Source: a virus. Taken from it: a stretch of DNA of 20,381 bases. Shown one piece after another: positions 3,349 through 20,356 of the stretch. Under the pieces are notes generated by a model that worked only from the letters and a program-made list of their open reading frames with translations, ran no database searches and was not told the origin of the DNA. The translations under genes and the position numbers were made by a program. Where the stretch lies: positions 1 to 20,381 of IMG/VR virus record IMGVR_UViG_3300032029_000038. One strand, 5' to 3'. Numbering within the stretch: the stretch's first letter is position 1; each line of letters opens with the position of its first letter.

Positions 3349-4647
3349 TTAGAGCCACCTTACCCCTCTAGGATAATTCGTAATCATACTTCTCAAGCCT
3401 AACTCAGCTTGTCCGAGCCAGTATTTAGCCTTGTCTTCTCTATTATCAATATCTAAGTTTCTTGACTTGGCATGGTTTATTAAGAGTGAACCTGTTACCT
3501 GAGATATAATGTAGGCGGGGTCTACCTCGCAATCCGTTGTATCGTCAGATAGCATGCCCGGCGGGTCGTAACCCGTAAGTCTCAAAAGTGTGTTCTCTCC
3601 CATAACCGAAAGCCCTGTTTTGGATATCTTGAGATAATTGGTTGAGCCGTTCACTAACTCCCAGTATTCATTCGCCAGGTCTGCGTAGGCACGGCTGGAA
3701 GATTTCAATGCCAATATATAGTCAAGATAGATTGTGCAAGGTCCTATATCAATTGTTGCCTTCTGGCGAAGCCCTACGCTGATTATCGCGGTATCCGAAT
3801 GAGGATTTGCTAAAGAAACAACACATCTAGTCCATGTGGCTGCGGTCAAGGCAGGTAAGTCAATCGTTTCCAACGCAGAGACGCAGGCTGCCGTATCGTC
3901 CAGCATGATTTGAAGTTGTCCGGCTGTAATTGCGATTGAACTGTAAATCCAAAGTTCTAAAGTATCGCACTTAGAGATGTCTATTGAGGATATAGCATAG
4001 TAACCTAAAGTCGCACCGGCAGCAACACCGGCAGCTACCGCGAGTTTAGCGCATCCGTTCCCTTCTTTTTCAATAGTCTCGTCGAGGGTAGCTGTGACAT
4101 TCGTACCACCAGTCCAAGCTAACTCGCATCTATCAACTACGACACTCTCGCCGATGCTCTTGACATATTCAACTCTTGAGATACCTGTAAAACCTGAAAG
4201 GCAGTTGTATTCATATTTAATTCTTTCAGTAAAAGTGTCGAAGGTTTTCTTCATTTGCAGCGCATATCGAGAGCCCTTGATAATAGCCTGATTTATAGCA
4301 TCGTTTATCTCCTCGATGGTAAAGACTCTCCACATCTCGTACTTATCCCCAACTACGATGTCATCCGTAAAGACCGGGGAACAGGTGGCATCTGATGTAG
4401 AACCCGTATAATCAGAAACACGTGATTCCTCACCATCCACAATAGAGCCATAAGCATCATAAATCATCACCTGCTTACCGTTGTGTTCATCATCCCCGCC
4501 CTGTAGTCTTACGGTATCGATAAGTGAAGATGTGTCTGCACCACCACCCGGTATGGCGGTCACTGTACCAACGATAACATCATTCAGGTTATATCCAATG
4601 GGATGCCTTATTTCTTGACGATTTTGGGCTTGTATTCCTGCTGTCAT
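3349..4647 (-). CDS. Probable neck/head-to-tail adaptor protein with inserted carbohydrate-binding-like domain, 432 aa
   Basis: Three parts are visible. The N-terminal 120 residues contain a beta-rich section and a helix (FTIEEINDAINQAI). Roughly 160-310 form a galactose-binding-like beta sandwich (CDTLELWIYSSIAI, GQLQIMLDDTA, CTIYLDYILAL). The C-terminal 110 residues (TGYDPPGMLSDDTTDCEVDP, then helices ending in YPRGVRWL) resemble the folded core of phage adaptor-type proteins: a beta element followed by a helical bundle. Immediately downstream is the probable propeller protein (stop TAA abuts that ATG), matching the adaptor-then-nozzle order of short-tailed phages. The ATG at 4647 is preceded by GAGGAG at a longish distance, inside the end of the 45-residue gene. 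The adaptor role is inferred from layout; a plain structural tail protein is possible. Confidence 0.5.
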   Translation of the reverse strand: MTAGIQAQNRQEIRHPIGYNLNDVIVGTVTAIPGGGADTSSLIDTVRLQGGDDEHNGKQVMIYDAYGSIVDGEESRVSDYTGSTSDATCSPVFTDDIVVGDKYEMWRVFTIEEINDAINQAIIKGSRYALQMKKTFDTFTERIKYEYNCLSGFTGISRVEYVKSIGESVVVDRCELAWTGGTNVTATLDETIEKEGNGCAKLAVAAGVAAGATLGYYAISSIDISKCDTLELWIYSSIAITAGQLQIMLDDTAACVSALETIDLPALTAATWTRCVVSLANPHSDTAIISVGLRQKATIDIGPCTIYLDYILALKSSSRAYADLANEYWELVNGSTNYLKISKTGLSVMGENTLLRLTGYDPPGMLSDDTTDCEVDPAYIISQVTGSLLINHAKSRNLDIDNREDKAKYWLGQAELGLRSMITNYPRGVRWL

Positions 4648-7395: not shown

Positions 7396-8208
7396 TTACC
7401 TGTCTAGGGTCAGGAATATCAGTGACTTATCAGTTGTTACGCCGACGTTCCGGCAGAAGCCGATAACCGGATGCGTATATGCTTCTACGGGGCCAACGCA
7501 GCCGTCAACCGTACCAGATGAAGTAATACCAGAAACAGCATCGCCAAGTACCAGTGTACCAATGCCGTGAATGGCAATGTCGCCTCCCGTCTGCATCCAG
7601 AAGTAGTAGGCAATTGTAACCGGTATATCGCATGCTCCGACAATCATGCCTGTCAGGGTAGTGTCTGGAGTGATTACCACACCGCTATAGGGATTGCGCC
7701 TGACACCAGTGAGTGTAGATGCAGTAAGTGCCAGAGTCACCGGGTCGTAACACGTGATAACCCCTGTTTCGTTATGGGTGATGGCCGGGTGAGACTTGAT
7801 TTTTAGGCACTGGCCTTCACCGGCTAAATCATTGGTGAAGAGATACCCTTCCTTGTACTGATCTTTGGTCATGCTCACTGAGGAAGTGGGGGTTATTGTT
7901 ATATCGTAGTCTCCTACATCCGCCGCCGCAGTCACCATGTCCATATCGTGCTCTGACCCAGCAGAGGCGGCAGTCTGGCAGGTGTAACCGGGAACCAGGG
8001 CTACCGCCCCATTAAGAGCATACCGCCATACCCTTTCCCCCTGAATCAGTTTAGTACCCAGTGGGAATCTCTGCTCAGAACTTATAGAAAAGGGATCAGG
8101 CGGGTAATGCTGTAGCAGTTCACCCTGGTCTCCGATATTAGGATACATCAGAACGAAACCGCTATCATTGAATACTTGATGCCTATATTGAACATTTCCG
8201 TCTACCAT
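7396..8208 (-). CDS. Probable capsid decoration/head protein, 270 aa
   Basis: The gene directly follows the major capsid gene with its own strong ribosome site (AAGGAGG nine bases before ATG). The protein is beta-rich with few helices: MVDGNVQYRHQVFNDSG, a proline-containing opening, then repeated short strands with Gly/Thr/Val (TPTSSVSMTKDQYKEGYLF, GVITCYDPVTLALT, GVVITPDTTLTGMIVG) and a C-terminal strand set (GFCRNVGVTTDKSLIFLTLD). The region QYKEGYLFTNDLAGEGQCLKI, a strand pair after a turn, recalls small beta-barrel cement modules. Genes in this location commonly encode head decoration (cement) or minor head proteins. A GC-rich hairpin follows it, so it and the capsid gene may form a high-expression unit. 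The exact family is not recognised. Confidence 0.6.
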   Translation of the reverse strand: MVDGNVQYRHQVFNDSGFVLMYPNIGDQGELLQHYPPDPFSISSEQRFPLGTKLIQGERVWRYALNGAVALVPGYTCQTAASAGSEHDMDMVTAAADVGDYDITITPTSSVSMTKDQYKEGYLFTNDLAGEGQCLKIKSHPAITHNETGVITCYDPVTLALTASTLTGVRRNPYSGVVITPDTTLTGMIVGACDIPVTIAYYFWMQTGGDIAIHGIGTLVLGDAVSGITSSGTVDGCVGPVEAYTHPVIGFCRNVGVTTDKSLIFLTLDR

Positions 8209-8240
8209 TAGATTATCCTCCTTATTTACTTTTCGTTAGT

Positions 8241-9263
8241 CTAGGCAGCGTTCATCAGGACTGCGGCAGCCGTCTTATTGGTCAGCCTCATACCACAGTA
8301 GAATTTGATGCGCTTTCCTTTGGCATCCTTGCCTTCCAGTATGCCGAGGTCATCTACCTGAATCATACCGACACCGTTCATACCGCACAGGCCATCTTCA
8401 CCAAACCTGACGGCGAATATCGGTGAGGTGTCGATAGTCCCCGCATCATAAGCTTGGTCGTAGTCGTAGTCTGCGATTGCAGTAACCATAGTATTAGCCG
8501 AGTCGTCCATGTTGTTCTTTATCTGGTCGTCAATGAGGAGTTTCTGTTCCCCAAATCTGATCACTATGTTGCCGAGTTCATTGCTAACATTCAGGTTCTG
8601 ACCGGATGCCTCAGCAAGTGTCTGCACTTTCTGCCTCATCAACCGACTCATAACGAAATGTGTTGGACTTGGCCTCACTGCATCCCTCAAGGCATGAAGC
8701 ATCGCCAGGGTTAGGGCTGCCGATGCGTCAGATGCGGCCATGAGCACCTGTGGGTTATGTGCATTGCTGTTATCTCCAGAAAAGAGCCAACCATCAAGGT
8801 CTGTGGTAGTGCTCGTCTCTGCCTCTGCTATTAGTCTAAGTAGCCCCTTGAAGTTCTTGCTACTGGAAAGTGAACCTACAGATGTAGTTCTCCCGTAGAT
8901 AGCTAGTTTGTCAAAGGTCTGGCTGACTCCCTTTGTTTTTAGCTCTATTGCCGCAACCATCGCACTCTCGGGTCCAGAAGCAAACTCGCCGAAGTTGTCT
9001 ACATCAATATTATCGCCGAGAATTGCTAACTGCGCTTCCCTGTATTCCCACGTGGGGTTGATGGTACTCCAGGTATCGTCAACATCATGCACACTTGCGC
9101 CCCCATCTGAAGTCTCCATTTTGTATCTGGAGATGTTGTTGTCTGTCAGTTCCACAAAGGGCAAATCCTTGAACCACGGTGATACTTTTACCAAGGTTTT
9201 ACCTATGCCCATCCGTGTCTCTTGGTCTTGTCCGAGATATTTATATTCTGCCAATGTAGTCAT
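8241..9263 (-). CDS. Major capsid protein, 340 aa, HK97-type fold likely
   Basis: The start is ATG at 9263 (MTTLAEYKYLGQDQETRMGI), preceded by AAGGAGG at good spacing; an in-frame ATG 72 bases upstream overlaps the scaffold gene and has no such support. The order scaffold, capsid, decoration protein and the size of 340 residues are typical. Features of HK97-fold capsid proteins include an N-terminal arm, WFKDLPFVEL leading into the E-loop-like strand region (SRYKMETSDGGASVHDV), an acidic central helix with AAIELKTKGVSQTFDKLAIYG followed by NFKGLLRLIAE, and a P-domain helix in LTLAMLHALRDAVRPSPTHFVMS. The C-terminal section has DTSPIFAVRFGEDG and ILEGKDAKGKRIKFYCGM. It forms the icosahedral shell. 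No maturation protease gene is present; a separate protease could lie outside the window or be absent. Confidence 0.85.
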   Translation of the reverse strand: MTTLAEYKYLGQDQETRMGIGKTLVKVSPWFKDLPFVELTDNNISRYKMETSDGGASVHDVDDTWSTINPTWEYREAQLAILGDNIDVDNFGEFASGPESAMVAAIELKTKGVSQTFDKLAIYGRTTSVGSLSSSKNFKGLLRLIAEAETSTTTDLDGWLFSGDNSNAHNPQVLMAASDASAALTLAMLHALRDAVRPSPTHFVMSRLMRQKVQTLAEASGQNLNVSNELGNIVIRFGEQKLLIDDQIKNNMDDSANTMVTAIADYDYDQAYDAGTIDTSPIFAVRFGEDGLCGMNGVGMIQVDDLGILEGKDAKGKRIKFYCGMRLTNKTAAAVLMNAA

Positions 9264-9271
9264 TGTGACTA

Positions 9272-9278
9272 CCTCCTT
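9272..9278 (-). promoter_or_regulatory. Strong ribosome binding site of the major capsid gene
   Basis: AAGGAGG, complementary to the end of 16S rRNA, lies eight bases before ATG 9263. It overlaps the TAA stop of the scaffold gene and decides the capsid start over the upstream in-frame ATG. Confidence 0.8.
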
Positions 9279-10071
9279 ATTTCTTTTTTCTTCTTTCTCC
9301 CATGATAAGTAGTTCGTGAGCATCAAGGTCTTCAAGGTTTATACTCCCCGCCGTCTTGCTCTTAGCATCGGCGGGCTTGTGCTTGTTGGGAGACTTCGAT
9401 TGAATTTCCATACTCATCACCTTTGCGAGAGAATCCAACTCCTTCGGACTCGAAGAATCGGACTCTACCAATTCCTTGATATAGTCCTCTCGAACCTTTG
9501 AAGTTTTTGCATCCCCGTTGGGAAAGTATTTGTAGCCATAATCCCGTGCCTTTAGACTCCGTTCCCTCTCAGCTAACCCGTTCTCATATCTGGATGAAAC
9601 CTTGCCTTCCTTATCATTGTAGAGTTGTAAGAAAGAGTGTTTATTTATGAGACCTGTTAGCTCCTGATGCCTTTTCAGTATCCTTTCACGGGCTTCTTTG
9701 GCACTAATGGCTCTCTCTTCACCGTGTGAATCGGTCTCGTCAGCAAAAAGGACTTCGTTAGCTTTTACATCAAGTTTGTTGTTGAGTTCGGCGTTTTCCT
9801 TCCTGACTGTTTCCAGTTCATCATATAGAGGCTTTAATTCCTTGTCCTTATTGGACTGTGATTTTTTCCTCTCATCATCCCTGGCACTTATTAAGTCATC
9901 CTCGGAATACTTGATTTCCGGCTTTGCATCCTCTTCGCCTTTAGTCTCCTCGGATTCTGTTTCCTCTGAAACATTCTCCTCCGCATCGGTTGAAGCGTTC
10001 TCTGGTTCGGGTGTATTCTCATCTTCCAAAGCTGTCTCCTCCACAACGCCAGTCTGTTCCTCGGTTTCCAT
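9277..10071 (-). CDS. Scaffold protein, 264 aa
   Basis: The first 60 residues are extremely acidic and low complexity (METEEQTGVVEETALEDENT and more Glu/Thr/Ser). Residues roughly 60-115 form a predicted coiled coil (DERKKSQSNKDKELKPLYDE, ETVRKENAELNNKLD), and a helical segment continues to about 150 (KEARERILKRHQELTGLINK). The C-terminus is basic and ends GERRKKK. Acidic tail, coiled coil and short basic C-terminus are characteristic of phage capsid scaffolding proteins, whose C-terminus contacts the coat protein. It lies immediately upstream of the capsid gene. The ATG follows AGAGGAGGAAC. No protease motif is visible, so the scaffold is probably released rather than self-cleaved. Function is inferred from composition and position. 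Confidence 0.85.
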   Translation of the reverse strand: METEEQTGVVEETALEDENTPEPENASTDAEENVSEETESEETKGEEDAKPEIKYSEDDLISARDDERKKSQSNKDKELKPLYDELETVRKENAELNNKLDVKANEVLFADETDSHGEERAISAKEARERILKRHQELTGLINKHSFLQLYNDKEGKVSSRYENGLAERERSLKARDYGYKYFPNGDAKTSKVREDYIKELVESDSSSPKELDSLAKVMSMEIQSKSPNKHKPADAKSKTAGSINLEDLDAHELLIMGERRKKK

Positions 10072-10102
10072 GATTTATTGTTCCTCCTCTTTATTTAATC
10101 TT

Positions 10103-13100
10103 CTATTTAATACCTGAGAGTAATTCTTCAAATGATGGCATTCCGCCCTTATCCCCCTGCCCTCCAGTGAGAATATCCTCAAAAGACGTGGGGTAGGAAG
10201 GCTTGGTTGTTCTATTCCCTTCTTCTTTTCCTCTTTTAAGTGCTGGTATGGAACTCGGAGGTATTTCATATTCTTCCATTAATTGACGTATTCTAGCTTC
10301 AGTTTCATCATCATAAATAGTTGACCAAGTTCCCCAAATCACCATGTCGGCCACGAACTCAGGGTGAGAATCTTTGTATTCTTTCTGTTGTGCCGATGTT
10401 AATTCGTCATAATAGTAATCTCTCTGCTCTTTGTACGACCAATAATATTCAACGAGTTTATTGAAACCCTCGTCTGTTGTTCTCATATCAGGCTCTAATT
10501 TATAGGTTGCACTCCCAATGTCAGCACCGAGGTCGGACATTGTATAATTCCAATCTTTATCCTCAAGTTCAAGACGCTTATCAATACTAGCGTTTGCCAA
10601 AGCCTTTTCTTTAGTTAAGGTATCTTCTCCGCCAAGCTGTGCAATAGCTTCGTTTACAGACTCTAAAGCGACTTCATTAATGGTAGGGTCGGATGCTTCA
10701 CCCGCGAATAGAGCGTGTTGGATTGCCTCGTACCAGTTGCGTTCCTTTTCGTAAAACTCAGAGTTGAGTTCGTATGTCTTATCAAATATCTCTTTAACCT
10801 GCCTGAGTATCTTCCTGTCAAGGTACTGTTGCTCTGTGGCAACTTCGAGAATATCCATAACTCTGCCGTAGAATAGTATAAACATATCGGCAGCTCTTGG
10901 AACGTCTTTTACAAGGTTGTCCATCGCCCACTCTTCGCCGTGCATTATGCCGTTTATATCATTCATTACGGCTGTTGCTGCTTCTATCGAACCTGTGGCC
11001 AGACCACCAGGACTCCAACCCATTAACATTGAGAAAAGGTCGTAGGGATTTCTCTTTTTCCCTGTAACTTTGCGGTATGTTTCTCCAGCTAGGTACATGC
11101 CAACAGCGGCAGCTATTAGGCTCTTTAACGCCCTGCGTTTCATGGATGGGGAAGTATTGGAACCCGGCCTTAATTTCTCAAAGTGGAGGTACATTTTCTG
11201 GGCAACGCTTCGAGGGAATGTCGCCAGATTACCGAGTATCCTTCCTGAAATCCCCATTTCTAAAGGGGCACGGTCACGCCTTTTATATCTAAAATGCGTC
11301 CTAGTCGTTACAAAATTGGCAATTTCTCTTACGGCGGCTTCCCCGCCAGTCACCGATTCGATACTCTCTAGACCATAACCGACTTTATCCTGAGCTAACA
11401 ATTCCAATACTCTTACCTGCTCCGTATGCGACATATCGTTCATGCCGGAGGCGTCTATGAATTTCTTTACATTCCCGTCCTTCTGATATTGGAATAATGC
11501 TCTCTCAGCTTTATTAAGACTTGCGAAGACAGCTAGGATATCCCTGTTAATCTGGTCTGATTTTCCATAATATGATATCTTTTTCAGAGCTCGCTCAATA
11601 GCTGTATTACCCATCCCTTCCTGCATCAGCCACTCTTTCATAACGGCCTTGAACTGGCTGACATAAGTTTTGACGTATTCTTGCTCCTGTGGAGCAAGAA
11701 TCCTGTTTCGCGGGTCGAAGAACACTCCGACATCCGGGTGTAGTGCAGGGTTTTGGAAGAGGTTTCTGATAAACATGTGCGGTGAAAGAGCTAGTGTGCT
11801 GAACGAGAAACCGGCCATCCTCATGGCAATTACCGCAAATATCTCTTGAGGATAATAGCCCTTCGCTTCCTGCATCCACATTTCTATATTATGAGCCGTA
11901 CCTGAAGTGTTCTTTAATTTTGTAGCGACATCGTTCTGAAATATCCTGTCAATCTCCCTAAAATATGGTTCTAATTTCAGGTTTTCCATCTGTCGGATAT
12001 ATGCAGCTCTACGCTGAAGTATATTCTTTTCGTGAGGAGCGAAATCGACACCTTCTCGACTCTTTAGTCGGCCTGAACCCATTACGGTTGCCTTAATCCT
12101 GTGTGCTTGTATTTTTGGATTTATAGCGATGTGGGGTTCGTAGCCACTCTTGATAACACCCCAGTCTTTAGTATCGAGATATTCCCTTAAACCTCCGGCA
12201 CCTTTCGTTTCGTAGAATTTGATAGATTCTTTAATATCCTCTCTTGGCGCATTGGGGATATCATCTTGTATCAAATCGACATTGCCGTTTCGTTTATAAT
12301 ATGACTTGGTAAACCGGAAAAATCGTACATCGTTTTCATAACTGAAAAGGTCTTTAGATATCTGGTCGGCTATCAATATTTCTACATCGGTAATATCTTC
12401 AGGCATTTCCGGCCCCATCTTATTTTGTGAGGCTATGTACTGGTTAATCCTTTCAAGGGCTTTTTTGTCCTTCGCAATGGTCTTAAACTTAGGAGTAATC
12501 TTTTCCAGCACTTCGTCCATCAATTCGGATTTGCGGTCAGATTCATCTGTAATATCCTTCGCCATTTTATAAACATCGTAGATACGGCTTTCAGTGCGTT
12601 CCTGAAGGCGTTGCATATAAATCGGCATGTCATAAAGAGGGCTTACTCCAACGTCTTTAGGCGGGAGTGATTTGGTTATTCTGCCCTTAATACCATCAAT
12701 GACGCTGGATAATTCAGGTTTATCTTTCAAGGCTTCGGCGACTCTTGTATCGTGTTCTATTAAACCGACTTCGGCCTCACGGTTCATTGCCCTGATTAAT
12801 TCCTTACCTTCGCTCTCGGTAATAAACCTTTGAGAGTATTCATATTTATCTGTTTTTAACTTATTGATATCCATCAATCTCTGATAAGCATCTTCGGAAA
12901 ACTTACCCTGAGATACTAGTTCATTTTTAAGTGACTGGATTGCCTTTTCCGTGCCTTCTGTCACTACGTGTTTGCCTCTAATAGATTTCGGCCTGACTGT
13001 CTTTACTCTGGCGAGTATCTTATCAAGACCTTCGTAATTTATATTGGTGAGGTAACTATTCCCACCCTTTTCTCTAAATAATGTTCTATATTGAGAAGCA

Positions 13101-14776
13101 GGGATACCTCTAGTATTCAATATCCCCATTATCTGCTGGCGGAGAGCCTTTTCTTGAGGTAGTATTTCTTTATTGAGCTTTGCCAATTCCTGTCGTAGTT
13201 CAACTTTGGTAGTACCTTTAGGTAATTCTTTTGCGGGTTTCTTAATGAGTACCTGCACCTCATTACGCCTTTCAATCGGTGTTTTAACAGTATTCGGAGC
13301 GACTCTACCTTTTTCCTGAATATCCTTTACCTTCGGCGGAGCTTTTGTAACCTCTGGGGTAACAGGTGCAGGTACTCTCTCTGCCTCTTTAGCGGGTGTT
13401 ACAGCCCGCCCGCCTTCCTCATAAGGGGTTGTGCCTATCTTTTTCTCTGCTGCTGCCTGCCCTACTTGATTAGCCATTATTTCCAGTTCGTCAATCTTAG
13501 GCTTCTCTACTTCTCCCGCTTTTGCCAACTCAGGGTAATACTTCAAGACTTCAGGCGGTACTGGCTTTCCTTCGGAGAGAGCTTTCCCTACGGCATGTTG
13601 ATGCGCCAATCTAAACCACATTATCCCCTCTTGGTCTGCACGTGCGCCTAAAGTCAAAGCACTAGTTTTTTTTGAGGGCGGTAGTCTTTCAGCCATATTC
13701 TTTTTGATGTATTCAGCCTGCGTCATCTGCCAGGGTTCTTTAGCAAGTTCCATCCTGCCTTTGCCTATTGCTTCGGCTGTCTCAGGGACTATACCCTGCA
13801 TACCTTTTATGATTTCAGCTTGTGTTATGGTCTGGCCTGGTATTCCTACATTCGTAGCTGTGAACTTCGTTATTTGAGGGGCATATTGTTTTACCAGCGC
13901 GGTAACTTCTTCATTTACCTCCCTGACTACATTTGCATCCTTGAACTGGACTCCGACCTTAGTGGGTCTGAATAGGGTTTTAATCGCCTGCTGACTGAGC
14001 CACTTCTTCGGTAATCTGGCGTAAAGATAGGTCACCATATTGGACTTAGTGTCTTTGGGTAATTCTATGCCTGCGCTCTTCGACCAACTATCGAGATTTC
14101 TACCGACTGAAAGTTTTAAGAAAGCATCCCAACCTATCTTTGCAGCTTGATATCCACCGTAGGTTATCAAGGCTATACCAGCAATATCAGGTGCAGAGAC
14201 ATCTACTCCTGCTATATTGAATAGAGGCGCATTGACAGTCGAGATTATGTCTTTGTGTATTCCTTCAGGCATACTGGAAATCATTGTCTCTATGGGTGTC
14301 ATTGCCCTGGAGGGTTTTCTTATACCAACTCTGCCCCATTCTATCTCGCCTTCAGATATTTTCTCTCCTGGAGTAGTTACCGAGAAGCCATGAAGGGGTA
14401 TTTCAACATCGGGAGCATATTCGGGGGCAGCCCTTTTACCTTGAATGAGGTCTATTACTTCATTGCCTTTGAGTACACCCTTTTCTCTCAATAACTCTTC
14501 ATCCAGACCCAACCCTCTGAATTCCTCTATATCCATGCCCTCATCGGAGGTAAGTCTATCTCTCAACATGGATATTTCAGAGGCTTCTCTTTCTTGAAGC
14601 ATAGAAGTTTCCGCTCTCTCTGCCAGTTCGGGGGTGTATGGAGCGGTCACGTCTGCACTCACCCCCGTTTCAACGGGCGGTGTATTTTGGAGTAGCCATG
14701 GGTTTCTCTTGAGTATGCGCTCCAAATCCATGCTTTCCTCTTTATTCTTTTGAAGAAATGAGTCAAAGTAAGTCAT
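10103..14776 (-). CDS. Giant polyvalent-type phage protein, about 1,550 aa, probable internal/ejected virion protein
   Basis: The largest gene here, located between unknown genes and scaffold. Residues 1-130 are charged and low complexity. About 187-215 is a hydrophobic stretch (DIAGIALITYGGYQAAKIGW). About 455-500 is Pro/Lys/Glu-rich linker. 500-900 is helical, with long coiled segments and SGYEPHIAINP. Around 985-1010 is MAGFSFSTLALSPHMFIRNL followed by FQNP. Near 1220-1270 two hydrophobic segments (LIAAAVGMYLAGETY; LFSMLMGWSPGGLATGSIEA) look membrane-active. The C-terminus has two copies of an SFEDIL/SFEELL motif. The HMFIRNL-plus-hydrophobic C-terminal layout resembles large polyvalent phage proteins that enter the cell with DNA. 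Such proteins often carry enzymatic domains; I see no catalytic motif. Start is uncertain: ATG 14776 is close to the previous stop with weak GGTGA; ATG 14731 has a better GAGGA. Confidence 0.7.
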   Translation of the reverse strand: MTYFDSFLQKNKEESMDLERILKRNPWLLQNTPPVETGVSADVTAPYTPELAERAETSMLQEREASEISMLRDRLTSDEGMDIEEFRGLGLDEELLREKGVLKGNEVIDLIQGKRAAPEYAPDVEIPLHGFSVTTPGEKISEGEIEWGRVGIRKPSRAMTPIETMISSMPEGIHKDIISTVNAPLFNIAGVDVSAPDIAGIALITYGGYQAAKIGWDAFLKLSVGRNLDSWSKSAGIELPKDTKSNMVTYLYARLPKKWLSQQAIKTLFRPTKVGVQFKDANVVREVNEEVTALVKQYAPQITKFTATNVGIPGQTITQAEIIKGMQGIVPETAEAIGKGRMELAKEPWQMTQAEYIKKNMAERLPPSKKTSALTLGARADQEGIMWFRLAHQHAVGKALSEGKPVPPEVLKYYPELAKAGEVEKPKIDELEIMANQVGQAAAEKKIGTTPYEEGGRAVTPAKEAERVPAPVTPEVTKAPPKVKDIQEKGRVAPNTVKTPIERRNEVQVLIKKPAKELPKGTTKVELRQELAKLNKEILPQEKALRQQIMGILNTRGIPASQYRTLFREKGGNSYLTNINYEGLDKILARVKTVRPKSIRGKHVVTEGTEKAIQSLKNELVSQGKFSEDAYQRLMDINKLKTDKYEYSQRFITESEGKELIRAMNREAEVGLIEHDTRVAEALKDKPELSSVIDGIKGRITKSLPPKDVGVSPLYDMPIYMQRLQERTESRIYDVYKMAKDITDESDRKSELMDEVLEKITPKFKTIAKDKKALERINQYIASQNKMGPEMPEDITDVEILIADQISKDLFSYENDVRFFRFTKSYYKRNGNVDLIQDDIPNAPREDIKESIKFYETKGAGGLREYLDTKDWGVIKSGYEPHIAINPKIQAHRIKATVMGSGRLKSREGVDFAPHEKNILQRRAAYIRQMENLKLEPYFREIDRIFQNDVATKLKNTSGTAHNIEMWMQEAKGYYPQEIFAVIAMRMAGFSFSTLALSPHMFIRNLFQNPALHPDVGVFFDPRNRILAPQEQEYVKTYVSQFKAVMKEWLMQEGMGNTAIERALKKISYYGKSDQINRDILAVFASLNKAERALFQYQKDGNVKKFIDASGMNDMSHTEQVRVLELLAQDKVGYGLESIESVTGGEAAVREIANFVTTRTHFRYKRRDRAPLEMGISGRILGNLATFPRSVAQKMYLHFEKLRPGSNTSPSMKRRALKSLIAAAVGMYLAGETYRKVTGKKRNPYDLFSMLMGWSPGGLATGSIEAATAVMNDINGIMHGEEWAMDNLVKDVPRAADMFILFYGRVMDILEVATEQQYLDRKILRQVKEIFDKTYELNSEFYEKERNWYEAIQHALFAGEASDPTINEVALESVNEAIAQLGGEDTLTKEKALANASIDKRLELEDKDWNYTMSDLGADIGSATYKLEPDMRTTDEGFNKLVEYYWSYKEQRDYYYDELTSAQQKEYKDSHPEFVADMVIWGTWSTIYDDETEARIRQLMEEYEIPPSSIPALKRGKEEGNRTTKPSYPTSFEDILTGGQGDKGGMPSFEELLSGIK
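14736..14740 (-). promoter_or_regulatory. Alternative ribosome binding site inside the giant gene's start region
   Basis: GAGGA, about four to five bases before an in-frame ATG at 14731. It supports a start 15 codons downstream of ATG 14776 and is the stronger of the two sites. Confidence 0.45.
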
Positions 14777-14783
14777 AATATTA

Positions 14784-15194
14784 TCACCAGTTTAACCATC
14801 TAGCTGAAGGGGCTGACCTTGATAAATTGAACCCTCTACGATAGGGAGAAAGCCCCGCATATTCCTGCTCGAAATTTATTGGATTTAGAAATGAGGAGAA
14901 AGTCCTCGTTGGCAGTTCACTGGAAACTCTAGCTTCATTAGCCAGTTCCCCTTGATAGCGGTTATAATATGTGCCAAGCTGAGAGCCGAAGAAGTCACTT
15001 AATCCGGGTCTTAACTGACCAAGACGTGCTTGATATGCAAGGTTAGGGTCGGAGTTAAGCCAGTCGGAAATCATCGCTTGCTTCCTTCTCTCTTCCGCCT
15101 CCCTTGCCATTAAGATTTCTATACCTCCGCTTTTCCAAGCCCCCATCCCTGCCTGCATATCTGCTAACGTTGTTCCTACAGGGTTATTCGACAT
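14784..15194 (-). CDS. Unknown protein, 136 aa, in the portal-scaffold interval
   Basis: I place the start at ATG 15194 because a GGAGG site lies exactly five bases upstream; an in-frame ATG at 15206 would put that site inside the coding sequence. The product starts MSNNPVGTTLADMQAGMGAW. It has a helical N-terminus with EILMAREAEERRKQAMISDW, then many Gln/Tyr/Asn residues (AYQARLGQLRPGLSDFFGSQ, YYNRYQGELA) and an Arg/Ser/Trp-rich tail ending RWLNW. This resembles small internal virion or head-completion proteins, but I do not recognise the family. The stop TGA is followed at once by TAA. The giant gene begins seven bases later, so the two may be translated together. Confidence 0.65.
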   Translation of the reverse strand: MSNNPVGTTLADMQAGMGAWKSGGIEILMAREAEERRKQAMISDWLNSDPNLAYQARLGQLRPGLSDFFGSQLGTYYNRYQGELANEARVSSELPTRTFSSFLNPINFEQEYAGLSPYRRGFNLSRSAPSARWLNW

Positions 15195-15199
15195 ATTAT

Positions 15200-15204
15200 C
15201 CTCC
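15200..15204 (-). promoter_or_regulatory. Ribosome binding site deciding the start of the 136-residue gene
   Basis: GGAGG, five bases before ATG 15194. It excludes the upstream in-frame ATG at 15206, which lies on the other side of it. Confidence 0.7.
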
Positions 15205-15223
15205 ATTTTTAAGACGAGATAGA

Positions 15224-15343
15224 TTAGCTTTCAGCCGCGAGAGTCTCCCAATAGTATGGGTGGCAATAAGTATATCTGACAGCATCAACATAATCACTAA
15301 TGTAATGAATAGGCTGGCCTCTCCACCCACAGTATAAACACAT
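15224..15343 (-). CDS. Small zinc-ribbon-like protein, 39 aa as read, probably missing its true start (frameshift or readthrough)
   Basis: From ATG 15343 to TAA 15224 the frame encodes 39 residues with CLYCGWRGQPIHY near the start and YTYCHPYYWETLAAES at the end: Cys2, Cys5, Cys27 and His28 would suit zinc. The same frame is open upstream back to the TGA of the 408-residue gene (15377) and reads plausibly (EFKSAAGQEY just before the Met), yet it contains no start codon there and the ATG at 15343 has no Shine-Dalgarno site. An ATG at 15380, overlapping that TGA as ATGA, is one base out of frame. Removing one G just after it would give MSEFKSAAGQEY joined to the ribbon, 51 residues. Either the gene is translated from 15343, or it is frameshifted here, or it is an extension of the upstream protein. 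Confidence 0.5.
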   Translation of the reverse strand: MCLYCGWRGQPIHYISDYVDAVRYTYCHPYYWETLAAES

Positions 15344-15376
15344 ATATTCTTGGCCCGCAGCACTCTTGAACTCACC

Positions 15377-16603
15377 TCATTTTCCTAAATACTCCCTCAG
15401 CCATTGCATGAATTCTTTATCGCCACCTTCGTCCATCCATTGATAGTAAAGGTAATATTCGTTATCCCTAAGCCACCTCGTGACCGGCTCGGAAAATCCT
15501 TTTATATAATCAATGAACTCCGCTCTGATTTTACCTGTTATCTCCTTGAATTCACCTTGAGTAGCTGCGACTTCTCCGGTGTGTTGTATATTTCTTTTCT
15601 CATAATCCTCAAGTTTTTTAGAATAGCCCTGTTCCAAACCCTGAAATTCTGTCTTCCTCTGGTTGATATAATCTTGAAACACTTTTAACGACTCATTGCC
15701 TGTATAGCCTTGCACTTCGTTAAAAAGGGGGAGTTCCGTAAAAACCATCCCTAGACCTACCATCTCGTTTGCCTGATTTAAGATAGATTCTGCCTTGACT
15801 GATGTCATAAGCGGTGATAATATTTCAGTAATTCTATCTATAAGGCGGGTTTTACTTTGCTCGTAGACTTCGCCCGACATCTGGGTAGTTTGATAAAGTT
15901 TCTCCAATTTAGCCATTGAAGTTTCATAGTCAGTCCGGGCTTCCTCAATATCCATGTAGTCTTTCTTAACCGCATCTCTTAGATAATCAGAGAGTTGAGC
16001 CTGATAAAGTTGATAAGAAGGCTGCATATCTTCAAACTTAGGCTCTGTCCATTGCGGAACTTCTAACTTCTCTCTCTCTGGATAATACTCGGCCAAAAGC
16101 TCATCGCTTGCAGGAAACCCCCCTGTTAATCCAGAACTTGGGTTTCCGTAATAATGTCCTGCGTTGACATAGGGTTGAGATAATTCAGGATTGTTAGTGC
16201 GAAAAATAGGATTCCCCTCTTCATCTGTGATAAGTAAGGCCTCTTCAGGTACTAAACCACCTTGTCCCGGCCCGTAAGCTGTAATGTTTTGGTAAGGACG
16301 ATAATCTTGAAAAGTTAGGCCACCCCATCCCATTTTACCCATTGTTGATTCAGGGCTATAATGGAACTCACCTGTATCTTCTCCGCTTCTCCACTGTTGA
16401 GCCTCTTGTGCAGTCGGTGCTCTCATATTTTGCTGAACGAAATCCAGTATCCAATGCTCCTCTTCCTGAGTAGACGGCGCCCCGCTATAACCAAAAGATG
16501 GCTCATAATACCATCCCTTTCTTTCAAGATTAGCCCTCTCCTCACTTGATGCTCCCTTTGTGGCTTCATTATGAAGTTTTATAAAGTCGCGATAATCAGG
16601 CAT
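15377..16603 (-). CDS. Unknown virion-associated protein, 408 aa, next to portal
   Basis: The gene starts two bases after the portal stop. The protein is acidic and rich in Tyr, Gln, Glu and Gly. Residues 1-200 are mostly loop-like with little predicted regular structure (YYEPSFGYSGAPSTQEEEHW, YQNITAYGPGQGG). About 205-300 is helical (AVKKDYMDIEEARTDYETSM, KLEKLYQTTQMSGEVYEQSK) and 310-400 contains further helices ending in GDKEFMQWLREYLGK. There is no signal peptide, transmembrane segment or catalytic motif. Genes directly after portal often encode head morphogenesis, protease or minor capsid proteins, but no Mu-F-like or protease signature is seen. The TGA stop is followed by an open frame encoding a zinc-ribbon-like segment, so readthrough could add about 51 residues. 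The family is unknown. Confidence 0.7.
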   Translation of the reverse strand: MPDYRDFIKLHNEATKGASSEERANLERKGWYYEPSFGYSGAPSTQEEEHWILDFVQQNMRAPTAQEAQQWRSGEDTGEFHYSPESTMGKMGWGGLTFQDYRPYQNITAYGPGQGGLVPEEALLITDEEGNPIFRTNNPELSQPYVNAGHYYGNPSSGLTGGFPASDELLAEYYPEREKLEVPQWTEPKFEDMQPSYQLYQAQLSDYLRDAVKKDYMDIEEARTDYETSMAKLEKLYQTTQMSGEVYEQSKTRLIDRITEILSPLMTSVKAESILNQANEMVGLGMVFTELPLFNEVQGYTGNESLKVFQDYINQRKTEFQGLEQGYSKKLEDYEKRNIQHTGEVAATQGEFKEITGKIRAEFIDYIKGFSEPVTRWLRDNEYYLYYQWMDEGGDKEFMQWLREYLGK

Positions 16604-16605
16604 AC

Positions 16606-18360
16606 TTAACCTCTCGCTCTAACCTCTTCACGCACATTGGCAGGCACTTTCGTGTTTCTCATAGCTCCATTAGTTGATGAGGGTGGCATTGCTCTCGGAA
16701 CACCAGATATCCCTGGCTGATTCCCTGCTTGGGGAGTTTGCACCATAGACATAACCTCTTGAATGAGTATATTCGCTTTTATTCTGCTTAAAGTCGCTTT
16801 TGCTGAATTATCCGTCCCGGCATCCTTTATCAAGGCTATGGCCGCACTAAGTTTGGCTAACCTTTCATCACCTTCAAGCATTTCCATAGATATAAGCTCT
16901 TCCTCATGGTCGGGGTCTTTCACCAATTGGCATTCATCTCTCCCAGTCCTCCGTGACCATGCACCTGATTGCACACCCTGGGCAAATATACCCATTAACA
17001 TATTTTTATCTCTCAATATGTCGGGTATAAGCCGGCAAGAAAAGGGAAGGTCAGTTATCATATTGTCCGGCTTGGCTTTAACCTTATATCGTTTTGAACC
17101 CGATGCCTCGAACTCTACCGGAGAATATTCACCACCCTTATATTGACTCACGATTTCCGAGGCTACCCACTCATAGTCACGCTCCAATGCCAGTTGGAAG
17201 GGCTTTAACTTGCTCATGGTCATGTGGGCAATGATTTCCGTTCCCTGCGCCGTCTCAGGATATGGAGCTAGACCTAAGACTAGCTCGCCTACACCGCCTA
17301 TAGAGAGTAAACGCTGCGTTAATACTGTCATCTTATCAATATTATCACCATTCCCTACGAGCTCGAGAGGCTCTATGTCTTGGCCTTTCCCTGCGTCTAA
17401 CGGAATATTCTCCCCTTTCTTGATAGGCATGTTCATCTTCTCCGGTGGTACGGGGTCTTGCTTGCTATCGTAAATCTGCTTTAATGTATTTCTGGACTCA
17501 ATCCCCGCCCTCGTCTTACCGTAGGTAAGAAGTTCGCTTTGCAAGTCGTAAACGCCCCTGTTTGTAGCAAAACAGCTTTCACCTACATACTTGATACTAT
17601 TGGTTATTTCCCCGTTTATTAAGGGTGAGAAGTTACCGGGCTTTATTCTTACAGGAATATAATCTAAGCCTATCCCATCCGGCTCTTCTACCCAATCTTT
17701 ATCGATAAAGACACCCTCTTCCGCTTCTTCCCCCGGGGAAGAACAATCAAAGACATTATAGACCTTGATAAATCCTTGAGAGTTCGGTTTAGCGTTACAG
17801 CCAGGGTATCTTAATTCAATCCCTTCTTTTGTTTCATACGAGATATAGCAGACATAGATTGGATTCTTCTTACCGTCAATCCATCGCGTGTTTCTAATAT
17901 CCCAAACAGCCCAGTCGCAAATAGTGTTTCCATCATCATCTTCATAAAGAAGTAGTCGGTCAGCCGTCCATCCCCTTACGACCTGGTAGAAGCTCTTGAG
18001 ACTATGCAGGTCCGTTTCACAAGAACTACCAGTATAAGCCTGCTTCGCCATGCGGATAAACCCGTTAGCGCAGTCCTCAGTTTCCTGCAATTTCTCCCTG
18101 CGTGGAGCATTAGCCCCTAATTGAGATAGAGATACTGATACCTCGGCAGTGGCTAGAGATGATATGAGTTTATCAGCCTCCGCTCTCGATAGGTTCGAGG
18201 TTACACTATCGAATGCCCCTTTATCATTTGTTATTTTGAACTCTTCAAGCAGATACCGCTTCAGATAATCCTCATCGAAGCGCTCTATAAGAGGGTCCAG
18301 GTACTTCTCTATATCATCTACTTTCTTCTTTTGCTCGGTAACATCATAGTCTAATGGCAT
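16606..18360 (-). CDS. Portal protein, 584 aa
   Basis: The size, the location after the large terminase and the internal pattern fit a phage portal. The N-terminal half has a helical head (EKYLDPLIERFDEDYLKRYL), a conserved-type helix around CANGFIRMAKQAY and a wing-domain core LKSFYQVVRGWTADRLLLYE leading to strands (DWAVWDIRNTRWI, NPIYVCYISYE). The second half has the crown/stem helices: GELVLGLAPYPETAQGTEII, a frequently seen portal feature, then AHMTMSKLKPFQLALERDYE and WVASEIVSQYKGG. The C-terminus is helical, then disordered and Pro/Arg-rich (TPQAGNQPGISGVPRAMPPS). Portals form the dodecameric DNA channel at one capsid vertex and the docking site for terminase. The start ATG overlaps the previous TAA (TAATG) and GGAGG lies just before. 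Confidence 0.85.
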   Translation of the reverse strand: MPLDYDVTEQKKKVDDIEKYLDPLIERFDEDYLKRYLLEEFKITNDKGAFDSVTSNLSRAEADKLISSLATAEVSVSLSQLGANAPRREKLQETEDCANGFIRMAKQAYTGSSCETDLHSLKSFYQVVRGWTADRLLLYEDDDGNTICDWAVWDIRNTRWIDGKKNPIYVCYISYETKEGIELRYPGCNAKPNSQGFIKVYNVFDCSSPGEEAEEGVFIDKDWVEEPDGIGLDYIPVRIKPGNFSPLINGEITNSIKYVGESCFATNRGVYDLQSELLTYGKTRAGIESRNTLKQIYDSKQDPVPPEKMNMPIKKGENIPLDAGKGQDIEPLELVGNGDNIDKMTVLTQRLLSIGGVGELVLGLAPYPETAQGTEIIAHMTMSKLKPFQLALERDYEWVASEIVSQYKGGEYSPVEFEASGSKRYKVKAKPDNMITDLPFSCRLIPDILRDKNMLMGIFAQGVQSGAWSRRTGRDECQLVKDPDHEEELISMEMLEGDERLAKLSAAIALIKDAGTDNSAKATLSRIKANILIQEVMSMVQTPQAGNQPGISGVPRAMPPSSTNGAMRNTKVPANVREEVRARG

Positions 18361-18498: not shown

Positions 18499-19863
18499 TT
18501 ATCCTCCTGGTGAATATGGTTGGAAACTCTTTACACGCTTCTTATCCTGTGAGTCGATGGATTCTACCGGACTTATCTCACTGAGTATGTAACCCTCCGC
18601 CGACATATAGTGGAATGAGGACTCATTGTGTATCTTCTCCTGCATCATGTCTTCTTTATCTACTTCGTAGGCAAATGACATCTTCTCATCCAGTACGCCG
18701 GCTAAGTCACTGAAGTAATATACTTTGTTATGGGCATGTAGAGAGTTCACCATTACTATTCTGGCTTTTACATCGTTAGAATGACGCGGTTCGGTAAGAT
18801 GCCAACCAGCCAGTGAATAAGCCTCTCTTACGTTCTCTTCTTGAAGATTTCCACCGACCTTTCGCCTGAAGGTCTCATTTTTGCTTGACTCTTGAAAGGA
18901 TTTAACGTGCTCGGTTAGACTCGCCTTCTGCAAATATTCCCTATAGCAGTAGAGAAATCCAGTTCCCGGCTCCATTGCGTACCAGAGGGCAGCTGTATTA
19001 ACTCGCCCGAAGTCCTGACCGAAATACCTCGGCCATTCTTGAGGTAAAGCAAATCTTGGGATTATACAAGCCTCCGAGTCGAAGGCATCATAAACTAATC
19101 CTTTCAATGAAGAGAGTATCTCACCGGCTAGCTCCTGCCGACCTAAACGCGTACCTTCGTACTTCTGAATGATATGACTTAGGAATTGGGGAGCTAGATT
19201 GAACTTATTATCTAACGTATGTCCCCGTGTTACCGTAACCCTTTTGTCACCCCGGATTGAATCTTGCATCAGTTCTTTGATTATTTTTATAGGTCGCGGT
19301 GTAGTAGCCACAACACATTGAGGGCTTTTTCCAGTCCTAAGTCCCAACAAAAGGTTATCCCATGTCTGTTGAGGATATAGGAACTTCGCAAGCTCATCAA
19401 CTGCTGCTTTTGCATGTTGAGGACCCCTGAGTTGGTCTGGCTCATCACCTGAGTAGATAACAGCCTGGACACCGTTAGGCCACGTTAAACGCCTCTTGGA
19501 AGGCTCATACTCCGGCATAAACCAGGGGGGGGATATCTTTAATATAGATGAATCACCAAGCTCTACTATTGTATCTCTAACATCGGCTTTTGTCTGCCCT
19601 ACCAGAGCTATCGGTGTATAACCTTCACTAGCCCACTGCCTGACAACTTCAGACAACGCTCTCGTCTTCCCGAAACCCCTACCCGACAGAAGAAGCCATA
19701 TGAACCAATCTCCTACCGGTGGTAACTGGTTGACTCTAGCCCATTTCTCCCAGTCATAAAGTAGAGCGAGTTTCTCTTCATCACTCAGATTGTTCTGGAA
19801 CTTCGTCTTCTCTGATTCTGGCAGAGAGCATAGTAATTGCATTTTCGAGGCGTTCCCCTGCAT
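18499..19863 (-). CDS. terL: Terminase large subunit, 454 aa (Terminase_6-like)
   Basis: The N-terminal ATPase shows the Walker A variant LLLSGRGFGKT (residues 57-67), LVGQTKADVRD (motif before strand 2), Walker B KAAVDELAKF (Asp156, Glu157) preceded by DQLRGPQHA, and a coupling motif VVATTPRP (184-191). The C-terminal nuclease begins YFGQDFGRVN (Asp284 as first metal ligand). The third expected metal ligand, normally the Asp of H-x-x-D-A-x-R-Y, reads HYMSAEGY here (Ser421), a possible loss. Near-complete length for the family. The N-terminus is uncertain: ATG 19863 overlaps the small-terminase gene by 83 bases with a weak ribosome site; ATG 19842 is an alternative. The protein powers packaging at the portal. 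The stop lies inside the ribosome site of the next gene. Confidence 0.92.
   Translation of the reverse strand: MQGNASKMQLLCSLPESEKTKFQNNLSDEEKLALLYDWEKWARVNQLPPVGDWFIWLLLSGRGFGKTRALSEVVRQWASEGYTPIALVGQTKADVRDTIVELGDSSILKISPPWFMPEYEPSKRRLTWPNGVQAVIYSGDEPDQLRGPQHAKAAVDELAKFLYPQQTWDNLLLGLRTGKSPQCVVATTPRPIKIIKELMQDSIRGDKRVTVTRGHTLDNKFNLAPQFLSHIIQKYEGTRLGRQELAGEILSSLKGLVYDAFDSEACIIPRFALPQEWPRYFGQDFGRVNTAALWYAMEPGTGFLYCYREYLQKASLTEHVKSFQESSKNETFRRKVGGNLQEENVREAYSLAGWHLTEPRHSNDVKARIVMVNSLHAHNKVYYFSDLAGVLDEKMSFAYEVDKEDMMQEKIHNESSFHYMSAEGYILSEISPVESIDSQDKKRVKSFQPYSPGG
18503..18508 (-). promoter_or_regulatory. Ribosome binding site of the 45-residue gene, embedded in the terL stop
   Basis: AGGAGG five bases before ATG 18497, formed by the last codons of terL (GGA GGA TAA). 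Arrival of ribosomes at the terL stop would expose it, implying coupled expression. Confidence 0.75.
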
Positions 19864-20356
19864 TTATAACCGCCTTGTCTATATTGATATTGTTATTAAC
19901 TATCGCAGCCCCTTCGGTGTATATCTTATCCATCTTGTTTAATAGGTCTATGGCTTGAGTAGGAGAATGGAGCTTAACTTTAGTAACCAGAGCAGCCCCC
20001 GCCCCCTCTTTATCGTACTCAGTCCGGGAAGTTATCTCACTAATAGCCCTTGTGTTCGGTGATTCCTTGCCTATAGAAAGATACCCTCCGTCTGCACCCG
20101 ACTCCTGGTAGTCTATTAAGTTGCCCCTGGCTATCTCAGTTAGTATCTCCTGACGTTCTCTGAAGTCGGCTATCTTCTCGCTGGCTGCTTTATCCCTTAA
20201 TTCCTGAATGCGTGCCTGGACGTTAGCTTTTGTTAGATTTACCGAGGCAATATTCCTAATAGACCTTGCTGAATAACCGGCTATCAAAGCTGCTTCACTA
20301 GCATTACCGTATTCAAAATAATTAAGGCAGAAATTTTCTTGTTTTTGAGTAAGCAT
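19781..20356 (-). CDS. terS: Terminase small subunit, 191 aa (Terminase_2-like)
   Basis: The N-terminus MLTQKQENFCLNYFEYGNAS followed by EAALIAGYSARSIRNIASVN is the characteristic opening of Terminase_2 small subunits: a first helix, then a helix-turn-helix that binds packaging DNA (roughly residues 3-60). Then AREIL-type helices (REIQEL region, RERQEILTEIARGNLIDY), a polar middle section, and the C-terminal oligomerisation helix LHSPTQAIDLLNKMDKIYTE (roughly 126-148), the usual order. The last 30 residues are acidic. ATG 20356 has CGAGG nine bases upstream. The end overlaps the start of terL in another frame. It recognises the viral genome and delivers it to TerL; the recognition site itself (cos or pac) cannot be located here. 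Confidence 0.88.
   Translation of the reverse strand: MLTQKQENFCLNYFEYGNASEAALIAGYSARSIRNIASVNLTKANVQARIQELRDKAASEKIADFRERQEILTEIARGNLIDYQESGADGGYLSIGKESPNTRAISEITSRTEYDKEGAGAALVTKVKLHSPTQAIDLLNKMDKIYTEGAAIVNNNINIDKAVINAGERLENAITMLSARIREDEVPEQSE

Follow-up and report, generated by a model that had tools for sequence, protein, structure and literature searches.

A giant protein encoded in a conserved slot between portal-like and scaffold-like genes is a candidate capsid-internal, ejected protein of an uncultivated phage lineage

The window analysed here (20,381 bp) represents an entire IMG/VR record. Its main genes all lie on the minus strand, as do the parts of P0001 and P0002 and the small genes P0014 and P0015 described below. 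Their order is terminase small subunit (TerS), terminase large subunit (TerL), portal-like protein, P0003, P0002, a giant ORF (P0001), scaffold-like protein, major capsid protein, several small genes, P0011 and P0010, and the run from the portal-like gene to the major capsid protein gene is co-directional. TerS (19781–20356) and TerL (18499–19863) were identified with Pfam and PHROGs, the latter also in the TerL search of the lineage; the two frames overlap by ca. 83 bp (19781–19863) when the first ATG is taken as the TerL start. The portal-like P0004 (584 aa; 16606–18360) had no Pfam, PHROG or PDB match and was assigned only by its position after TerL and its homology within the lineage. P0003 (408 aa; 15377–16603) lies between the portal-like gene and P0002. 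P0002 (140 aa; 14784–15206), directly upstream of the giant, belongs to a conserved partner family and bears the C-terminal motif RGFNLSRSAPSARWLNW (14787–14837). On the other side of the giant, the acidic P0007 (264 aa; 9277–10071) was called scaffold-like only on composition and position and has a homologue in locus L004, and the major capsid protein P0008 (8241–9335) matched phrog_212 (5.3e-32). The original prediction had set the giant between portal and scaffold together with two further genes, and this neighbourhood was recovered, with the scaffold role inferred and the major capsid protein gene following.

Among the small genes, P0015 (5482–5838) and P0014 (6925–7347) are paralogues with 28% identity over 96 aa (5.6e-9), so that the run contains two copies. 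P0012 (4793–5503) contains a Concanavalin A/LamG-like lectin domain (PF13385, 7.6e-13), which probably serves in host binding.

P0001 comprises 1,557 aa (10103–14776), starts with ATG, has no internal stop and takes up 4,674 of the 20,381 bp (23%), in agreement with the ca. 1,550 residues and nearly a quarter of the window originally described. The end of P0002 and the start of P0001 are 7 bp apart, and 31 bp separate the end of P0001 from the scaffold-like gene. The gene is intact in contig L002, which is 99.9% identical to the window over 14,829 bp, and the frame stays open in full-length or core orthologues at 31%–45% identity. Thus, the ORF is not a product of chance. Its N-terminal variable third (residues 1–526; 13199–14776) is a swapped module with a hydrophobic stretch at ca. 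177–204 and the motif HQHAV..AL.EGKPVP.EVL.YYPEL (residues ca. 392–418; 13523–13603), which it has in common with the giant of L226. An all-helical conserved block (residues 527–970; 11867–13198) and a conserved C-terminal core with modest hydrophobic segments (residues 979–1400; 10577–11842) follow, and a C-terminal module (residues 1407–1519; 10220–10558) is common to the giants of L035 and, partly, L005. The core contains the motifs SPH-x3-RNL-x-QN-x-A-x-HPD and THF-x-Y-x-R-x2-RAP-x-EMG, and the HMFIRNL motif named in the original prediction is present at residues 1000–1006 (11759–11779). The two C-terminal hydrophobic segments that had been claimed proved approximately right: Kyte–Doolittle profiles gave three peaks from ca. 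979 on (ca. 979–997, 1216–1230 and 1295–1313), in addition to the N-terminal one at ca. 177–204. All are modest (best 19-residue mean 1.74) and have the appearance of short or amphipathic stretches, not of classical transmembrane helices.

Searches with P0001 itself were largely negative. Pfam returned no family at E ≤ 1, including any LPD or effector domain, and P0001 does not reach the gathering score of LPD38 (PF18857). NCBIfam and PDB sequences gave no match, and the only two rows from PHROGs were weak (best 0.0044) and were taken as chance. Accordingly, the claim that the protein has no recognised enzymatic core stood in all four of these searches. No sequence match to T7 or P22 ejection proteins was found in PHROGs, phage records or PDB sequences, again as anticipated, and the DarB-family PHROG did not match either. 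The tape-measure, lysin and transposase-like proteins that the original prediction had named as evidence against itself were looked for in Pfam and PHROGs, and none of these profiles matched P0001. A tblastn search against 50,697 phage records matched neither P0001 nor the giants of L004, L011 and L044 and the core of L082; the L038 giant matched two Vibrio phages, in one of them inside a 9.9-kb gene annotated as N-6 adenine methylase. PDB profile searches with the portal, adaptor, nozzle, capsid and P-type (see below) alignments yielded nothing usable. Because P0001 itself had no usable match, its neighbours in the window were followed up.

An AlphaFold2 model of residues 527–1400, built from seven sequences, agreed with the long helical parts originally noticed. 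Residues ca. 540–970 were modelled as all-helical with pLDDT ca. 80–95 and dips at the start and in two loops; the HMFIRNL-containing core was also modelled as helical, mostly with low confidence, and the second half of the model was largely below pLDDT 50. In BFVD, an ADP-ribosyltransferase polyvalent protein ranked second (9.4e-4) and a putative internal core protein of Ralstonia phage RSB3 third (2.5e-3, probability 0.99), with low TM-scores (0.13–0.27) over the top four matches, and 8 of the top 50 were named large polyvalent protein-associated domain proteins. A fold search of the PDB gave no match below E 0.14. The core type represented by the window, hereafter P-type, is an unannotated family without a solved relative.

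P-type orthologues of P0001 were found in L141 (43% identity), L223, L227, L082, L225 and L226 (31%), with conservation strongest over residues 527–1400 and weak in the N-terminal third. It is in this third that the orthologues differ in content: L223 carries a GNAT acetyltransferase domain (PF00583, 24.7 bits; cut-off 20.7) and L082 a HEIGH motif, and HExGH is present in several other giants. The corresponding part of P0001 has no recognised module and only the HQHAV-EGKPVP-YPEL motif in common with L226, the full pattern being matched by two ORFs among all fetched loci (G copies excluded). Modular domain swapping was thus observed among the P-type orthologues. Furthermore, a 47-kb phage (G014; L228–L230) encodes a giant with a P-type core at 22623–26438 and lacks the other cassette families of the window, indicating that the core moves between phage lineages.

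Relatives of the window were collected with a TerL search (26 loci), a portal profile (15 loci), a widened portal profile (80 of 385 relatives kept) and a P0011 adaptor profile (80 of 222 kept), and the portal and adaptor scans revealed a large IMG/VR lineage with the gene order of the window. Where contigs are long enough, the order is usually portal (ca. 600 aa), one or two variable proteins, a P0002-like protein, a giant, a scaffold-like protein and capsid. P0002 is the best-conserved part of the set, and its profile collected 64 ORFs (contig copies included). For the slot count, 45 non-duplicate P0002-like genes followed by an ORF of > 150 aa were considered, leaving out those without such an ORF within 250 nt downstream; motif matching found 70 P0002-like ORFs, compared with 63 rows in this count, copies included in both. 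Seventeen followers were cut by contig ends, and all 28 complete ones were giants of 1,181–3,057 aa. The largest, of 3,057 aa, is encoded by G013 (8075–17248, minus strand). The C-terminal motif pattern occurred in 26 of 47 unique complete P0002-like proteins. Where a separate P0002 gene is lacking, the motif or domain often forms the C-terminus of the preceding protein (RTRWLLNY in L004 and L034, APQTRWLLF in G017), and it is also carried in L035, L044 and G001. L005, L011 and G015 are exceptions, in which the giant directly follows the portal without a P0002-like gene or such an ending. The slot is conserved across the lineage while its giant proteins differ greatly. Since the giant comes after a P0002-like protein in most members of the lineage, the idea of a set of capsid-internal proteins was strengthened. 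A literature search, mainly of open-access papers, found no description of this portal–P0002–giant cassette.

The giants of the lineage are mosaics. After removal of duplicate contigs, which preceded the blastp grouping, the profile comparison and the slot and core-type counts, blastp linked 27 of the 36 giants or fragments by segments that they have in common, not by whole proteins, and left a separate group of five and four singletons. Profiles distinguished three types of C-terminal core, namely LPD38, B/C and the P-type of the window. At 1e-5, 50 non-duplicate ORFs were assigned (23 B/C, 20 LPD38 group, 7 P), none of which was matched by two types, and the 28 complete slot giants comprised 14 LPD38, 8 B/C, 3 P and 3 unclassed proteins. 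The original suggestion to look for LPD families was productive: Pfam LPD38 was confirmed in three of 29 giants (fragments included), as well as in L143 and L163 and in 2 of 13 records, and one of the 29 syntenic giants had a DarB-like match (phrog_10089, 2.6e-7). The closest kin of the window with a different core type, G018 (identity of 51% for the nozzle and 43% for the adaptor, and a capsid profile match at 2e-148), has in the same slot a giant of 1,439 aa with Pfam LPD38 at 1.8e-18 (G018/L143). By hhalign, the P-type core showed no link to the LPD38 group (E 0.56). Against the B/C group it gave E 0.025–0.042, which is only suggestive, and across alignment versions the values for B or C ranged from 0.016 to 0.15, so that no link is claimed. 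B and C matched each other at 5e-82, and after iteration both sets share most of their members. An attempt to unite the three core types by profile failed; only the B–C link was solid.

These observations can be read tentatively as indicating a standard dock for head cargo in the lineage, in which the P0002-like protein, with its C-terminal RG..AP.xRW/F(L/I) pattern, would be a dedicated adaptor loading whichever giant adjoins it. Mutually exclusive and perhaps unrelated giants might then be swappable, with the dock being conserved; we regard this as a possibility of rather less than even weight.

Evidence on the tail came from the genes downstream of the capsid genes. P0011 (432 aa; 3349–4647), directly upstream of P0010, was taken as adaptor-like from its position. 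P0010 (751 aa; 1093–3348) was modelled with AlphaFold2 from 34 sequences (pLDDT 63) as a beta-propeller resembling short-tail nozzle proteins; Foldseek ranked the tail of podophage E1004 first and the T7 nozzle third, with Kp9, Kp7, SU10 and VP1 tails within the top 22 matches. A second aligner rated the propeller as generic, with numerous unrelated propellers scoring Z ca. 20. ORF listings of the lineage showed neither a tape-measure nor a tail-tube gene; as families of the window served as the sole labels there, this absence is weak evidence. From the P0010 model, the window phage is probably short-tailed. Downstream of the nozzle-like gene, P0016 (748–1092) has a weak match to an HNH-endonuclease PHROG (3.8e-4), and its family, with 59 ORFs counting contig copies, recurs beside the nozzle gene of related phages.

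Several known systems offer a framework for this gene set. LPD38 is described as occurring only in polyvalent proteins of the phage type, whose packaging in capsids is considered likely (PMC5512222). For one LPD38 protein, gp69 of the podophage JC1 (4,515 aa, LPD38 at 4195–4401), 51 unique peptides were reported from purified virions (PMC9144972). Such proteins, including JC1 gp69 and DarB-like ones, are like P0001 giants in a virion-gene context; they are multidomain, and LPD38 giants fill the slot of P0001 in close relatives. In contrast, P0001 has neither an LPD38 match nor a profile link to LPD38, and in JC1 the gene of gp69 lies far downstream of those of the portal and capsid (gp45, gp48). 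DarB of phage P1 (251 kDa) is reportedly packaged into the head and believed to pass into the cell; its first 30 residues are enough to direct a reporter to the capsid (PMC9024508). Its gene (ORF 10) stands between those of the small helper Ulx (ORF 9) and the portal (ORF 11) in the numbering given there (PMC9024508), an arrangement akin to that of the window, where the giant follows a small gene downstream of the portal-like gene. However, P0001 showed no similarity to DarB by PHROG, and P1 belongs to the myophages. A capsid signal lies at the N-terminus of DarB, whereas none was identified in P0001.

Ejection proteins, in turn, have been characterised as mosaic, fast-diverging and operon-clustered, with one better-conserved small member (PMC8954989). 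The window set resembles gp14/gp15/gp16 of T7 and their P22 counterparts, as far as these are described, in combining one small and larger fast-diverging proteins in an operon. It differs from them in having no sequence match and in lying between portal and scaffold, and no link between T7 gp14 and P0002 was found in PHROGs. In kind the set fits the ejection-protein pattern; in sequence and gene position it does not. The one BFVD fold match to a podophage internal core protein is no more than suggestive of a gp16-like protein.

Taken together, P0001 resembles phage-type polyvalent proteins and fits their context as a large protein among the virion genes of a portal- and terminase-bearing phage. 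Lacking a domain of that kind, it is not filed as a formal polyvalent or LPD38 protein, although it would work like one. The explanation that we consider probable, with some reserve, is that P0001 is a capsid-internal, ejected giant of a short-tailed phage that acts like P1 DarB and the internal core proteins of podophages. The original reading as a capsid-internal, ejected set is thereby supported; we infer the presence of P0001 in virions, its ejection, any effector activity of its own and the role of P0002. With P0002 and perhaps P0003 as helpers, P0001 would be loaded into the prohead near the portal and later leave through the nozzle, either before the DNA or together with it. The conserved block of helices and the weakly hydrophobic HMFIRNL core could form the part that mediates ejection and envelope crossing, and the variable N-terminal third could be an interchangeable carrier of cargo.

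The strongest competitor is a purely structural ejectosome protein, an envelope conduit like T7 gp16 that bears no effector cargo and whose N-terminal third is a linker with portal docking. T7 gp16 is described as a 1,318-aa, largely alpha-helical protein with two predicted transmembrane regions (PMC8954989), and the helical block and modest hydrophobic segments of P0001, its lack of an enzyme domain and the internal core protein at BFVD rank 3 are all in keeping with this reading. Nevertheless, the N-terminal third of P0001 is strongly variable, and same-slot orthologues carry GNAT or HExGH modules and close kin carry LPD38, which are typical of cargo-bearing polyvalent proteins. We therefore hold this alternative to be plausible but clearly the less probable; as it forms a subset of the ejected-protein reading, the confidence placed in the two overlaps.

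An inner scaffold or morphogenesis core, which would aid head assembly and leave before maturation, is suggested by the adjoining portal and scaffold-like genes. This explanation is unlikely, given that a separate scaffold-like gene exists, that relatives contain enzyme modules and that giants of such unequal length with interchangeable cores are unlike a shape-determining scaffold. Slightly less likely still is a non-structural early protein merely placed in the head operon. The placement of P0001 in virions is a prediction from sequence and gene context, and a P-type core also turns up in G014 in a different gene neighbourhood, but the position between portal/P0002 and scaffold/capsid is very stable across the lineage. 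Finally, a tape-measure protein of a long-tailed phage can be virtually dismissed: P0001 is long, large and helical, but its gene does not follow tail-tube genes and lies between those of the portal and the capsid, a nozzle-like protein is encoded downstream, no Pfam or PHROG match was found, and tape measures appeared in the BFVD search only from rank 22, with weak matches (probability ≤ 0.08).

Ejected head proteins belong to the least conserved parts of virions, and their identification usually relies on mass spectrometry. With a conserved small partner to mark it, a stable slot makes giant cargo proteins of uncultivated phages findable by position alone, and it makes the selection of cargo for the phage head directly testable.

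With regard to the host, a portal-profile scan of genome contigs gave no match, and the P0011 adaptor profile gave three, in a Nitrospirota MAG, a Dehalococcoides MAG and Cohnella. All three contigs match P0011 over residues ca. 169–314 only and carry no portal, P0002, capsid or nozzle families. Because the matches are partial and the rest of the cassette is missing, no host is claimed. Residues ca. 169–314 of P0011 represent a separately conserved module.
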